64,000 nt of DNA from Desulfobacterales bacterium (lineage in GTDB: Bacteria > Desulfobacterota > Desulfobacteria > Desulfobacterales > SpSt-501), in NCBI GenBank assembly GCA_030834695.1, contig JAUQXK010000089.1, forward strand, positions 62,001 to 126,000, written 5' to 3'. The translations under genes were made by a program, and so were the position numbers. Below, piece by piece: positions 7,956 through 20,286 of the stretch (the stretch's first letter is position 1; each line of letters begins with the position of its first letter). The notes beneath the pieces were generated by a model, which was not told the DNA's origin, searched no databases, and saw only the letters and a list, made by a program, of their open reading frames with translations.

Positions 7956-8969
7956 ATGAAAAAGAAAGCGCTTCTCAAAAAACCCGTGCGGCACGTTGAC
8001 GTCACCTCGTTCGACGCCACTCCCATTATCGACGCCATGCGCGAGATGTCCTTCACCTCGCGGGACACTGCCGCTGCGGCCGACATTTTCGAGCGCATGC
8101 TGCGGGACAAGGGCTGCACCATCGTGCTGTCGCTGGCCGGCAGCACCAGCGCGGCGGGCTGTATGCAGGTGTACGCCGACATGGTCCAGTACAACATGGT
8201 GGATGCCGTAGTGGCCACCGGCGCATCCATCGTGGACATGGACTTCTTCGAAGCCCTGGGCTTCAAACATTACCAGGGCTCGCCCAACGCGGACGACCGC
8301 CAGCTGCGCGAGCTCTACATCGACCGCATCTACGACACCTACATCGACGAGGAGCAGCTGCAGGCCTGCGACATGACGGTCAAGAAAATCGCCGACGCGC
8401 TGCCGCCCAAGCCTTATTCCTCCCGGGAGTTCATCCACGAGATGGGGCGCTACCTGACGGAGCACGCCGTCAAGAAGGGCTCGCTGGTCGAACTCGCCTA
8501 TCGCCACAACGTTCCCATCTTCTGCCCGGCCTTCACCGATTCGAGCGCTGGCTTCGGTCTAGTCAAGCATCAGGTGGAGCGGCCCGACCGGCATCTGACC
8601 CTGGACTCCATCCGTGACTTTTACGAGCTCACCCGGATCAAAATGGAGGCCAAGACCACCGGCGTCTTCATGATCGGCGGCGGGGTGCCCAAGAATTTCA
8701 TCCAGGACACGGTCATCTGCGCCGAGGTGCTGGGCCGGGACGTACCCATGCACAAATACGCCGTGCAGATCACCGTCGCCGACGCGCGTGACGGTGCCTG
8801 CTCGAGCTCCACCCTCAAGGAAGCCTCCTCCTGGGGCAAAGTGGATACGGCTTTTGAGCAGATGGTATTCGCCGAGGCGGGGTCGGTGCTCCCGCTCATC
8901 GTCAGCTACCTGTATCACCAGGAAAGCTGGCGCAAGCGCAAACGGCGTGAATGGGCGAAGCTTTTTTGA
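7956..8969 (+). CDS. Deoxyhypusine-synthase-family protein (polyamine aminobutyl transferase)
   Basis: A 337-residue NAD-dependent enzyme of the deoxyhypusine synthase (DHS) family. It keeps the lysine that carries the aminobutyl group, in the motif SSWGK (291-295), the NAD-side segment ATGASIVD (87-94) and GGGVPKN (241-247). In eukaryotes and archaea DHS modifies eIF5A, which bacteria lack; relatives in bacteria and plants make homospermidine from putrescine. Since it follows an arginine-to-putrescine pair by 106 bases on the same strand, a polyamine such as homospermidine or spermidine is the likely product. A true protein target is an alternative but less likely. It is shorter than human DHS by about 30 residues. 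Confidence 0.85.
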   Translation: MKKKALLKKPVRHVDVTSFDATPIIDAMREMSFTSRDTAAAADIFERMLRDKGCTIVLSLAGSTSAAGCMQVYADMVQYNMVDAVVATGASIVDMDFFEALGFKHYQGSPNADDRQLRELYIDRIYDTYIDEEQLQACDMTVKKIADALPPKPYSSREFIHEMGRYLTEHAVKKGSLVELAYRHNVPIFCPAFTDSSAGFGLVKHQVERPDRHLTLDSIRDFYELTRIKMEAKTTGVFMIGGGVPKNFIQDTVICAEVLGRDVPMHKYAVQITVADARDGACSSSTLKEASSWGKVDTAFEQMVFAEAGSVLPLIVSYLYHQESWRKRKRREWAKLF

Positions 8970-9018
8970 TCTTTTAAGGACCTGGCCTGAAGACGGATTC
9001 CAACCCGGTGGTCGTTTC

Positions 9019-10383
9019 TCACGCGAACCCGCGCATGAGCATGATTGCGAGCTGGAAATAGACGGTGATCCCGATGGCGTCGATGATCGTAGCCATCAAG
9101 GGACCTGCCGTCAGCGCCGGATCGAGGTTGGCACGCTTCAGTACCAACGGAATGAGTGCGCCGCCCAGATTGGCCAGCATCAGGGTCGCCAGCAACGCCA
9201 AGCCGACGATGGCGGCCAGCATAAGATTGTGGTCCTGCAGAAAGACTCGGAAGTAGGCCATCAACCCCAACGTGACTCCCAGGGCTGCACCCATCCACAT
9301 CTCCCGTCCGAACACCCGCAGGAAGTCCTTCGGGCAGACTTCACCCAGCGCCAGCGCACGCACCACCATGGTCGCCGACTGGGTTGCGGCGTTGCCGCAG
9401 GTACCGATCACCATGGGGATGAAGAAGGCCAGCGCCACCATCTCCTTCAGCGTAGCGGCATTCCATTCCATGATGGTGGTCGAAATCAACGAGGTGAACA
9501 ATAGGATGGCCAGCCAGCAGAAACGGCTCCAGAAAAGCCGCGGCATGGGGCGTTTAAAGTATTCCTCCTCAAACGGGACCACGGCCGAAATCCGTTGGAA
9601 GTCCTCGGTGTTTTCGGCCTCGATGATGTCGATCACGTCGTCGACCGTGATGATCCCCAGCAGCCGGTTCTCTCCGTCCACCACCGGAATCGCAAGGAAG
9701 TCGTATTTCTGGATCTGGGCCGCAGCGGATTCGACATCCAGGTTGTGATGCACCGCAATGACGTTTTCTTCCATGATGTCCCGGAGCCGGGCCTGCGGCT
9801 TGGACATGATGATGTCCCGGAGCGATGCCACCCCTAGCAGATGGTGCCCTCCGTCGGTGAGATACACCTGGTAGATGGTCTCCTTGTTGGGCGCCTGCAG
9901 ACGAAGAGACTCCAGAGCGTCCTTGACGTTCATCTCGGGCGGCAGGTTGCAATAATCGGTGGTCATGACGGCGCCGGCCGTGCCTTCATCGTAGTTCCAG
10001 AGGCGTCGGATCTCATTACGCTCGACCTGGGCGATGAGCGGCATGATCGCCTCGCTGATCTCGGAATCCACCTTCTTGAGCAGATCGACCCGATCGTCGG
10101 GCTCCATGTTCTCGATGAACTGCAACATGGTTCGAGTCCGACCGGTTTCCAGGCAGCTCTGTTGAGTTTCCAGGGACAGGTGCTCAAAGGCCTCGATGGC
10201 GATCGTGTTGCCGATATTTACCAGGGTTTCCACGATCTCCAGCGGGCTCAGACCGCTGTTTTCAAGGTATTCGGCGATATCGGCCGGATGGCGGTCGCGC
10301 AGCGTCTCCACCTCTTGACGGTCTTCGAGACGGCATGCAGACAAATTTTCAGGGATTAGTTGCGGGGAAGTGGAAGTGGTCAT
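9019..10383 (-). CDS. mgtE: Magnesium transporter MgtE
   Basis: A 454-residue MgtE channel. Seen in order: a cytosolic N domain of helical repeats (about 30-140, with HPADIAEYLE), a tandem CBS pair (about 145-275, with DYCNLPPEMNVKDALESLR and VIDIIEAENTEDF), a connecting helix, and five membrane helices from about 300 to the end. The pore-region residues GTCGNAATQSATMVVRALALGE are present. MgtE lets magnesium into the cell and closes when the CBS domains bind it. AGGAG precedes the ATG. No magnesium riboswitch could be confirmed upstream. Confidence 0.95.
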   Translation of the reverse strand: MTTSTSPQLIPENLSACRLEDRQEVETLRDRHPADIAEYLENSGLSPLEIVETLVNIGNTIAIEAFEHLSLETQQSCLETGRTRTMLQFIENMEPDDRVDLLKKVDSEISEAIMPLIAQVERNEIRRLWNYDEGTAGAVMTTDYCNLPPEMNVKDALESLRLQAPNKETIYQVYLTDGGHHLLGVASLRDIIMSKPQARLRDIMEENVIAVHHNLDVESAAAQIQKYDFLAIPVVDGENRLLGIITVDDVIDIIEAENTEDFQRISAVVPFEEEYFKRPMPRLFWSRFCWLAILLFTSLISTTIMEWNAATLKEMVALAFFIPMVIGTCGNAATQSATMVVRALALGEVCPKDFLRVFGREMWMGAALGVTLGLMAYFRVFLQDHNLMLAAIVGLALLATLMLANLGGALIPLVLKRANLDPALTAGPLMATIIDAIGITVYFQLAIMLMRGFA

Positions 10384-16616: not shown

Positions 16617-16946
16617 ATGAAAATGCAGTCGATTGCCTTCGAGGCCACCGATTGGTCTGCCATAGAAAAAACCGAACACGCGGGCATCGGAGGGGTTGCC
16701 TGCTGGCGCACCCGGCAGTTCAATGATATCCGCGTGCGAATGGTAGAATACCCCCCCGGCTACCTGGCGGACCACTGGTGCGCCAAAGGGCACATCCTGT
16801 TGGTGCTTGAGGGCGAGCTTGAAACCGAACTTGCTGACGGCCGCAGGTTCACGCTCACCGCGGGCATGAGCTATCAGGTTGCCGATGGGGCGGAGCCGCA
16901 CCGCTCATCCACCCGGACAGGAGCCAGGCTTTTCATTGTGGATTGA
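16617..16946 (+). CDS. Small single-domain cupin (DHCW-motif type)
   Basis: A 109-residue one-domain cupin. It shows ADHWCAKGH (51-59), the region that gives the DHCW-motif cupin family its name, then GELETELADGR and a second motif with GAEPHRSST (His near 95). These residues usually hold a divalent metal. Small cupins of this kind bind small ligands or act as stress enzymes, but the function is unknown. AGGAAGGATAGGATCC-like purine-rich sequence precedes the ATG. It stands alone between the divergent permease operon and the S8 protease. Confidence 0.8.
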   Translation: MKMQSIAFEATDWSAIEKTEHAGIGGVACWRTRQFNDIRVRMVEYPPGYLADHWCAKGHILLVLEGELETELADGRRFTLTAGMSYQVADGAEPHRSSTRTGARLFIVD

Positions 16947-17256: not shown

Positions 17257-19101
17257 ATGAAACGCTTGTGGATGAAAGCGATAGCCGTCGGAATCATGGT
17301 GTTCATGAGTGCTGCGGTGAGCTACTCTCAGGAGCGCACGCCGGAAGACGTCCAACGGCTGATGGAACAGAAAGCGCCGCCGGCACCCTTATTCGTGCCC
17401 GGCGAAGTCATCGTGCGCATGAAACCCGCCCTCCGGCTCAGGGGAGCGGATTTAAGCCGTCTGGGGGTTCAAGAGAAAGAGAGCGTCACCTCCGGCGGCG
17501 AAATCATCTATCGCATTTCCCCTAACATCCGCACCACGATGTCGCGGGCTCAGCTCCTGGACCGCACCCTGCAGCTCGTTCGCCAGTTCGCCGCCAGACC
17601 GGATGTCGAATATGCCCAGCCCAACTACATCCTGCGCATCTCCGACAAAACTCCCAACGATCCGCGCTACCCGGAGCAGTGGCATTACTTTTCCAACGGG
17701 GCCGGGGCCGGGCAGTCCCCGGGCGGCATCAATCTTCCCAAAGCCTGGGATGCCTCGACCGGAAGCTCTGCCGTCGTGGTGGCCGTTGTCGACACGGGTA
17801 TTCTGCCGAACCACCCGGATATCCAGGGGTCTCCGAATGTGGTACCGGGGTACGACATGATCAGCGATGCGTTCATCAGCAACGATGGCGGCGGCCGGGA
17901 CAGCGACTCGACAGACCCCGGGGATGCGGCGGCGGCCGGCGAATGCTACCCCGGAAGCCCGGCGCTTCCTGATAGCTGGCATGGAACGCACGTTGCCGGC
18001 ACCATCGGCGCGGGCCACACCAACAACGGGATCGGGGTGGCCGGCATCAACTGGAATGTCAAAGTCCAAGCCGTCCGGGTCTTGGGCAAATGCGGCGGCA
18101 CGACCGCAGATATCAACGACGGCATCCGCTGGGCTGCAGGCCTGTCGGTTCCGGGAGTTCCCGCCAATCCCACGCCCGCCAAAGTCATCAACATGAGCTT
18201 GGGGACGCCTCCCGGAAATCCCTGCTCGATGTCGCCGTCCACCCAATCGGCCATAAACGATGCGATCGCCATGGGGGCGACGGTCGTGGTGGCAGCGGGA
18301 AACGATGCCACGGACGCCTCCCAGGTGTTTCCGGCAAGCTGCAACAACGTCATCACCGTTGCGGCCGGGGACGCCCGCGGCTATCTCGCCACGCGCTATT
18401 CCAATTATGGATCCACCGTGGAAATCATGGCTCCGGGCGGCGACGTCCGCCGGGACGACAACGGCGACGGCCGACCGGACGGCGTTCTAAGTCTGGTGCA
18501 TCCCAATGCCGGCACCTATGCCTACTATAACGGAACGTCCATGGCGGCTCCGCATGTGGCCGGTGTGGCGGCCCTCATACTGGCCCAACAGCCTTCGCTC
18601 GTGTCGTCCCAGGTGCTGGCCCACTTGCAAGCGAATGCGCTGCCGCGCACGGCAGCTCAATGCCCGCAGCCTTGTGGCGCCGGCCTGTTGAGCGCAGTTG
18701 CACCGGGAGCCCCCCCGCCGCCGCCACCGCCTCCTTCCCTGGCAGTGTCCTTAAGGCTCGACTCCAGCGACCTGCAGACCGGTGAATCCACGACCGCCAA
18801 GGCCATCGTCACCCAGAACGGCGCTCCGGTCGCCGGCAAGTCCGTCGCCTTCAACACCGGGAATGCGGGCGTCGCCAGCGTCGCGCCCGCCGCGGCCGTC
18901 ACCGACGCGAACGGACAGGCCCAGACGAGCGTGAAGGGAGAATCCAAAGGTGAGACCACGCTGAGCGCAACTGCCAACGGTGCCACCGCCAATGCACCGG
19001 TAAGAGTGCCGGATCTATCACTTACCGCCGTCGTCTTTATCGCCGCATTGGCTGTTATTATCGTCATAAAGCGAAACCGAAAAAATTCCGGCCAGGTTTA
19101 A
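17257..19101 (+). CDS. Exported S8 subtilisin-like protease with C-terminal sorting signal
   Basis: A 614-residue protein. Order: signal peptide (1-24), propeptide-like segment (45-125, ending DVEYAQPNY), S8 catalytic domain with Asp 179 (AVVDTG), His 242 (HGTHVAG) and Ser 428 (GTSMAAPH), a proline run (486-493), one Big-type immunoglobulin-like domain (about 495-582), and a tripartite C-terminus: VPDLSL (584-589), a hydrophobic helix (590-604) and KRNRK (605-609). That tail is the layout of exosortase substrates; the motif resembles the IPTL-type or JDVT-type signals but matches neither exactly. The exosortase-like gene starts five bases after its stop, so it is very likely the dedicated substrate. 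The target of the protease is unknown. Confidence 0.9.
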   Translation: MKRLWMKAIAVGIMVFMSAAVSYSQERTPEDVQRLMEQKAPPAPLFVPGEVIVRMKPALRLRGADLSRLGVQEKESVTSGGEIIYRISPNIRTTMSRAQLLDRTLQLVRQFAARPDVEYAQPNYILRISDKTPNDPRYPEQWHYFSNGAGAGQSPGGINLPKAWDASTGSSAVVVAVVDTGILPNHPDIQGSPNVVPGYDMISDAFISNDGGGRDSDSTDPGDAAAAGECYPGSPALPDSWHGTHVAGTIGAGHTNNGIGVAGINWNVKVQAVRVLGKCGGTTADINDGIRWAAGLSVPGVPANPTPAKVINMSLGTPPGNPCSMSPSTQSAINDAIAMGATVVVAAGNDATDASQVFPASCNNVITVAAGDARGYLATRYSNYGSTVEIMAPGGDVRRDDNGDGRPDGVLSLVHPNAGTYAYYNGTSMAAPHVAGVAALILAQQPSLVSSQVLAHLQANALPRTAAQCPQPCGAGLLSAVAPGAPPPPPPPPSLAVSLRLDSSDLQTGESTTAKAIVTQNGAPVAGKSVAFNTGNAGVASVAPAAAVTDANGQAQTSVKGESKGETTLSATANGATANAPVRVPDLSLTAVVFIAALAVIIVIKRNRKNSGQV

Positions 19102-19106
19102 AAAAA

Positions 19107-19655
19107 ATGATGGATAGCCTTTGCATCGGCTCGGCCTGGAGCCGCCCGACAGGGCGTTTTATAATTCGCGTTTCAACCCTCATGCTCCTCTTGCTGATGG
19201 TCTACCGCGACGATCTGTTGGGACGGCTCCTCGGCCCGTGGGAAGAATTGACTGCTCGGATGACGCTGTCCTTGCTGCATGCCTTTAAGATTGAGGCGGT
19301 GCGGCTTGGCTCTCAGATCCATCATCCCGGAGGGTTTGCTTATGAGATTTACTACCGCTGCACGGCCTTTCTGCCCGTGGCGCTCCTGGCGGCGCTGATC
19401 GCCGCTACACCGGTATCCGTGCGATCCAAACTGATTGGCGTATGCGCAGGAGCTCCCGTACTGGTCGCCCTGAATCTCATCCGCCTTGTACAGCTGTTCC
19501 ATACCGGTGTTTTCCACCCGGCGTTTTTCGATCTGGCCCACGGGCTGGTGTGGGAGATCATCTTGATGATGGCCACGCTGGGCATATGGTGGAGGTGGAG
19601 CCGGTGGGCAACGCACTCGAATCCATTGAGGAGGAAATGGAATGACCCCGTTTGA
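19107..19655 (+). CDS. Exosortase-family membrane transpeptidase/protease
   Basis: A 182-residue membrane protein with four or five helices. The exosortase catalytic triad is visible: Cys 85 in IYYRCTAF, Arg 126 in ALNLIRLV and His 145 in DLAHGLVW. These enzymes cleave a C-terminal signal of exported proteins and pass them to a surface glycan or lipid. The size is that of short exosortases such as XrtH rather than the long EpsH type. It lies directly after the S8 protease that carries a matching tail, and overlaps the next gene by 14 bases. No exopolysaccharide cluster adjoins. Confidence 0.82.
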   Translation: MMDSLCIGSAWSRPTGRFIIRVSTLMLLLLMVYRDDLLGRLLGPWEELTARMTLSLLHAFKIEAVRLGSQIHHPGGFAYEIYYRCTAFLPVALLAALIAATPVSVRSKLIGVCAGAPVLVALNLIRLVQLFHTGVFHPAFFDLAHGLVWEIILMMATLGIWWRWSRWATHSNPLRRKWNDPV

Positions 19656-20286
19656 AGCGTTTGAACGCATGCTGGCCGATACGGAACGGGGAACTATCAA
19701 CGGGCTGACAAGCCCTGCGAGTATACAGGCATTCCTGGATGATATCGCCTACAGCACCGACGACTTCTACCGATGTCCGTTGCGGGTGCTGAGAGAGCGC
19801 ACCGCCCACTGCTTCGATGGGGCCGTGTTTGCTGCGGCTGCATTGCGCCGCCTCGGCCATCCGCCACTGATACTGGACCTTTTGTCCAACGGCCGGGACG
19901 ATGAGCACCTGCTCGCCCTTTTCAAGGTCGACGGCCACTGGGGCGCGGTCGCCAAATCCAATTTCGTCGGCCTGCGTTTCCGCGAGCCGGTTTACCGCAG
20001 CCTGCGCGAGCTGGCGATGTCATACTTCGAGCAGTATTACAATATCGAACGCGAAAAGACCCTGCGCGGGTACACCGGCCCGCTCAATCTGAATCGCTTC
20101 GACCGCTTCGACTGGATGACGAGGGACGAGCCCTTAGAACTCATCGCCCGGCGCACCGACGAGATCCGCCGCATCAACCTGCTGCCGCCCGCCTTAGCGG
20201 ACAGACTATCCCCGGTCGATGAACGCTCTTATCAGGCCGGGTTGGCGGGAGCTGATCCGAAAGGCCTTTTTAAGCCATCGCAATAA
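19642..20286 (+). CDS. Transglutaminase-fold protein
   Basis: A 214-residue protein with the core of a transglutaminase-like cysteine enzyme: AHCFDGAVFAAAALRRLGHPP (Cys 57), then DDEHLLALFKVDGHWGAVAKSN (His 89 and His 99 region). This resembles bacterial transglutaminase-like peptidases. There is no signal peptide, so it should act inside the cell. GAGGAGG precedes its ATG, and it overlaps the exosortase gene by 14 bases, so the three genes 17257-20286 form one unit. It might act on the protease, its anchor or an unrelated substrate; that is open. Confidence 0.68.
   Translation: MTPFEAFERMLADTERGTINGLTSPASIQAFLDDIAYSTDDFYRCPLRVLRERTAHCFDGAVFAAAALRRLGHPPLILDLLSNGRDDEHLLALFKVDGHWGAVAKSNFVGLRFREPVYRSLRELAMSYFEQYYNIEREKTLRGYTGPLNLNRFDRFDWMTRDEPLELIARRTDEIRRINLLPPALADRLSPVDERSYQAGLAGADPKGLFKPSQ

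Follow-up and report, generated by a model that had tools for sequence, protein, structure and literature searches.

Dedicated protein-sorting systems, in which an enzyme and its single target are encoded by adjacent genes, have been described for rhombosortase and for sortase (Haft and Varghese 2011, PMC3237569), so that the principle is already known. In the dedicated rhombosortase/GlyGly-CTERM systems, one enzyme and one target are specified by consecutive genes, and S8 proteases are found there, too, among the tagged families (PMC3237569). Exosortases of the PEP-CTERM/EpsH kind (XrtA, XrtC and XrtD types) recognize PEP-type or VPDSG-type tags and typically serve many substrates. XrtH (TIGR04177), the exosortase of the IPTL-CTERM signal (TIGR04174, IPTLSEWG), is a small enzyme of about 170-200 aa with Cys, Arg and His residues. 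To our knowledge, exosortases have hardly been studied biochemically, and a sequence-profile search found no solved exosortase structure.

Here we describe an S8 protease (subtilase) and an XrtH-like exosortase encoded side by side in a 64,000-nucleotide stretch of a Desulfobacterales genome (the window), which probably form a self-contained dedicated sorting system; cleavage and transfer are predicted activities.

Genes and domains of the locus

The genes for the S8 protease, the exosortase and a third protein are read in this order on the + strand of the window, as judged by open reading frames and their translations (Table 1). A gap of 5 bp separates the first two genes, and the third overlaps the exosortase gene by 14 bp; the coordinates, gap and overlap recorded in an earlier note on this DNA were all reproduced.

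Table 1. Features of the locus in the window and of the divergent gene in NC10
Feature	Position	Strand	Details
Cupin-like gene	16617-16946	+	Neighbour, not part of the pair; precedes the CPR-C4-like gene in relatives without the pair
S8 protease	17257-19101	+	614 aa
Putative Sec-type signal peptide MKRLWMKAIAVGIMVFMSAAVSYSQ	17257..17331	+	Read from the sequence by eye
Prodomain, fervidolysin-type	17368..17625	+	Residues 38-123; Pfam PF22148, 19.0 bits, just below the cut-off of 21
S8 catalytic domain	17767..18684	+	D179/H242/S428; Pfam PF00082 (Peptidase_S8), E 1.5e-54
Ig-like domain Big_1	18784..18999	+	Pfam PF02369, 35.8 bits, cut-off 34.9; E 8.5e-9
Predicted sorting tag VPDLSL	19006..19023	+	Residues 584-589; invariant in 6/6 exosortase-linked S8 proteases from two phyla
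Hydrophobic helix TAVVFIAALAVIIVI and basic tail KRNRKNSGQV	19024..19098	+	Read from the sequence
XrtH-like exosortase	19107-19655	+	182 aa; TIGR04178 over cut-off; C85/R126/H145
Third gene, CPR-C4/vasohibin-like cysteine protease	19642-20286	+	214 aa; neighbour, not part of the pair
NC10 divergent gene, locus L070	5403-6176	-	
NC10 divergent gene, locus L071	5415-6116	-	
NC10 divergent gene, locus L072	5324-6010	-	
NC10 divergent gene, locus L138	about 8762-9463	+	

The protease has the C-terminal arrangement that the earlier note had claimed for it, i.e., VPDLSL followed by a hydrophobic helix and a basic end, and this arrangement comes after an Ig-like domain that is probably a stalk. In an alignment of six orthologues (see below), 201/311 columns are invariant in the catalytic domain, 37/101 in the prodomain and 29/81 in the Ig-like domain; only 1/24 columns is invariant in the signal-peptide region, where poor conservation is expected.

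The window exosortase matches the exosortase/archaeosortase signature TIGR04178 with 40.5 bits (cut-off 23), and all 27 exosortases that were aligned share its C85, R126 and H145, so the triad named from the window sequence holds in relatives as well. The AlphaFold model of the enzyme (pLDDT 50) was too poor for use. Against the XrtH model TIGR04177 (cut-off 86 bits), the window exosortase (78.7) and that of a second Desulfobacterales genome, G005 (81.0), both fall below the threshold; three NC10 orthologues score 100.5 (L138), 101.0 (L071) and 89.6 (L070) and pass it, and on this sequence evidence the enzyme is therefore XrtH-like by descent. Placement in the Xrt tree had been suggested as a check: when 27 exosortases are arranged in a tree, those linked to S8 proteases, six in number, form a single clade with support of 100/100, and comparison thus indicates one common origin for them. 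The nearest other exosortases come from NC10 and have no subtilase beside them, and this placement is weak (78/53).

Distribution of the pair, its tag and its neighbours

A scan of contigs with the exosortase retrieved G005 (86% identity) and three loci in Methylomirabilota (NC10), two of them in CSP1-5 and one in PMV_4.88, and G535 emerged as a further carrier when 95 Methylomirabilota genomes were searched. This makes six pairs: one each in the window genome and G005, and four in three NC10 genomes. The exosortase gene directly follows the protease gene in all six. Relative to the window, the protease is 94% identical in G005 and 64-67% identical in NC10, where the exosortase is 44-47% identical; across six pairs, the pairwise identities of protease and exosortase are correlated (r = 0.85). 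Only 2/7 genomes of the genus have the exosortase, and no member of its clade was found in the other sampled Desulfobacterota (395 genomes sampled). With a protease that is 64-67% identical between the two phyla, the simpler reading is horizontal transfer, by which the pair probably entered this lineage. Contamination of the window assembly is unlikely, since the flanking genes match those of other members of the genus. A search for a plasmid home of the exosortase gave no match in the plasmid collection.

All six proteases end with VPDLSL, then the helix, then a mostly basic end. The six columns of the motif are all invariant, and none of the 25 columns that follow is (helix 0/16, tail 0/9), although their character is retained. 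In the C-terminal 117 columns of the alignment 36 are invariant; a hypergeometric count gives p of about 6e-4 for invariance of all six VPDLSL columns as a motif named in advance, and a permutation test for the longest invariant run anywhere in these columns gives p of only 0.05. The tag had been picked out in advance, from the window sequence only, which makes it unlikely that its invariance is due to chance. In S8 homologues without a link to this exosortase, the alignment mainly covers the prodomain and catalytic part, and the three of them whose ends were read have no VPDLSL-type tail. A motif, a helix and a basic tail would also serve as a plain C-terminal membrane anchor, beside which the exosortase gene would be an incidental neighbour, and sorting cleavage is a prediction. 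An anchor, however, would require the opposite of what is seen, namely a hexapeptide invariant over two phyla next to a fully variable helix, and the gene order is kept in 6/6 cases despite differing sequences downstream. We consider a plain anchor highly improbable and retain the reading of VPDLSL as a sorting tag.

Downstream of the pair, NC10 genomes have other sequence, e.g., a gene for a response regulator with PilZ in G535. In the window the next gene is the one described in the earlier note as attached and transglutaminase-like. The latter description stands at the superfamily level; the protein reaches only 15.6 bits against Pfam Transglut_core (cut-off 23), and its closer identity is CPR-C4, with E 4.5e-40 against PDB 7ob6. 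Its C57-H89-L111 have the same spacing as C61-H93-L115 of CPR-C4, and by sequence the protein is clearly a CPR-C4 homologue, a cysteine protease of the vasohibin-like kind. Here, then, is a CPR-C4/vasohibin-like protease (window 19642-20286) outside the Candidate Phyla Radiation, present genus-wide and usually beside a small cupin gene.

The overlap with the exosortase gene, which makes co-transcription probable, might suggest that this protein functions within the system, for instance as an additional processing protease. The gene, however, is present in 7/7 genomes of the genus, five of which lack the exosortase (and in one other among 146 genomes searched); on its 5' side it usually has the cupin gene; and the CPR-C4-like gene is not downstream of the NC10 pairs, where other genes are found. 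A working role is thus extremely improbable, and we rejected the gene as a component; neither its attachment nor a conserved three-gene order was upheld, only the order of two genes being kept (6/6). According to tblastn against the genus loci, the cupin gene lies about 15-40 bp before the CPR-C4-like gene in G001, G002 and G006; in G003 and G004 the distance is about 630 bp. The pair thus lies between genes that are neighbours in its absence, and the overlap reflects no more than position. G005 (L069/L028) lacks the cupin gene that adjoins the cassette in the window, but retains the permease gene further upstream.

The NC10 loci have a neighbour of their own, a divergently transcribed gene for a protein of about 230 aa, which adjoins all four of their pairs. 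The protein has an apparent signal sequence and prodomain-like segments at its start (FVPGEVLVKF) and end (ESAQPNYILRI), and Pfam PF22148 is over cut-off in 2 of the 3 tested. The gene is absent from the window genome and G005; all that matches it there is a piece of the prodomain of the protease itself. Its product, probably secreted, could be a trans inhibitor or folding aid of the S8 protease.

One enzyme, one substrate

Exosortases usually serve many substrates, and the exosortase of the window might likewise process further proteins with tags diverged beyond recognition, the neighbouring protease being merely the most obvious target. Sorting tags are short, and searches with a single tail or a single profile (here 39 columns) are weak and can miss strongly diverged tags. 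We ran the tail profile over the window genome, G005, CSP1-5 and PMV_4.88, and obtained five strong matches (E about 1e-20 or better), all of them proteases adjoining an exosortase; CSP1-5 accounts for two, and the other three genomes for one each. The weaker matches in the four genomes, when read, were not C-terminal tails. CSP1-5, with two tagged proteases, also has two exosortases. The window genome gave no second VPDLSL tail by single-sequence search, by the tail profile or by a degenerate DNA pattern around VPDLS, so the genome search that the earlier note had set as a refuting test found no second identical tail.

The IPTL-CTERM model TIGR04174 finds nothing over cut-off in the window genome; it matches weakly at four places, which could be taken for additional substrates, but, as far as the reading went (on one strand), these do not look like C-terminal tails. 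The same model does not match the window protease (E up to 10) or two NC10 tails (E up to 1). No curated sorting-signal model fits VPDLSL; the earlier note had said that the signal matches no common class exactly. The other two exosortases of the window genome are an XrtD fused to EpsI and an XrtC-like enzyme with its own neighbour, and the four PEP-CTERM matches over cut-off in this genome suit these two enzymes. A wider set of substrates for the XrtH-like exosortase is therefore unlikely.

Elsewhere in the window genome, contig C115 carries a second apparently dedicated pair (L047 5855-7342): a 134-aa protein ending in HNSVLDSSTMLLLGITLVGLSGYFGRRKFKR, a tag that resembles VPDSG-CTERM, is encoded 3 bp before the XrtC-like exosortase (163 bits, cut-off 300). 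Near this exosortase, at L047 9357-9962, is a gene for another protein whose end consists of GGGGGGGCFISSALSG, a helix and a basic tail (CFI/MYXO-like).

Within the sensitivity of the tail profile, a single target appears to lie beside the window enzyme, as in the definition of dedicated systems (PMC3237569). The dedicated pair with its own tag thus stands as proposed in the earlier note, the tails occurring only beside exosortases and both pair and VPDLSL being kept in 6/6 cases. Occurrence of this pair in a second phylum, with an identical six-residue tag, makes a true one-enzyme-one-substrate system likely. Comparison across the genomes searched supports the pairing, the one-to-one ratio of tails to enzymes, the invariant motif and the conserved triad; export, cleavage, the acyl-enzyme and transfer are predicted from knowledge of exosortases and sortases. 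The S8 protease, made as a pre-pro-enzyme, would be exported via Sec; its C-terminal helix would keep it in the inner membrane, and its basic tail would stay on the cytoplasmic side. On the outer membrane face, the exosortase would recognize VPDLSL, and C85, aided by R126 and H145, would attack in or near the motif, and the helix would be removed. The new C-terminus would then be passed to an acceptor or to water, leaving the protease attached to the cell surface, with the Ig-like domain as a stalk, or released.

Relation to known sorting systems

Rhombosortase, for all the similarity of gene organization, is an unrelated rhomboid serine protease with another tag. The third gene belongs with CPR-C4/vasohibin proteins (PDB 7ob6, PMC9108980), with which it shares the Cys-His-Leu(carbonyl) triad, a family that has no connection with exosortases. 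The XrtA, XrtC and XrtD types are of the same superfamily as the window exosortase and have targets with the same tripartite tail, and XrtD- and XrtC-like members are encoded elsewhere in the same genome; they are, however, about twice its size or fused to EpsI.

XrtH with its IPTL-CTERM signal is a close known system, although the window enzyme itself stays under the curated XrtH threshold. VPDLSL(I)G has P2, L4, S5 and, in NC10, also G8 of IPTLSEWG; it differs in lacking Trp-Gly and in going undetected by the model, and its partner is a subtilase. We infer from this resemblance over a short stretch that VPDLSL(I/T) is probably a diverged form of the XrtH signal. XrtH-type genes elsewhere in Desulfobacterota adjoin genes ending with VPTMTEWG, VPTLSEWG, IPTLSEW, APTMNEWG or VPALSGW, i.e., an IPTL-type gene, so a single neighbouring substrate is not unusual for the XrtH type. 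In G448, a distant member of Desulfobacterota, a 603-aa open frame (L074 1387-3198) includes an XrtH-like exosortase domain (E 4.3e-21) and may be a fusion. Our literature search did not find an XrtH variant that uses VPDLSL and has a subtilase as its partner; on XrtH or VPDLSL we found nothing beyond one mention of IPTL-CTERM in a paper on the Methylomirabilis S-layer. The novelty of a single-substrate system, as suggested in the earlier note, is thus partial: the tag is the system's own, but the enzyme is XrtH-like, XrtH-type genes lie beside an IPTL-type gene elsewhere, and dedicated systems are known (PMC3237569).

On balance, we lean towards the view that a clade of XrtH-type enzymes shifted its recognition from IPTLSEWG to VPDLSL and became specific to a single subtilase, with which it travels between phyla as a two-gene cassette. 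If so, these would be matched enzyme-substrate pairs from which the specificity code of exosortases might be read. A two-gene, one-substrate system whose substrate is an easily assayed enzyme would be a convenient model for cleavage, acceptor and motif specificity, and, since the tag of this XrtH-type enzyme has diverged, the IPTL-CTERM pairs lend themselves naturally to comparison with it.
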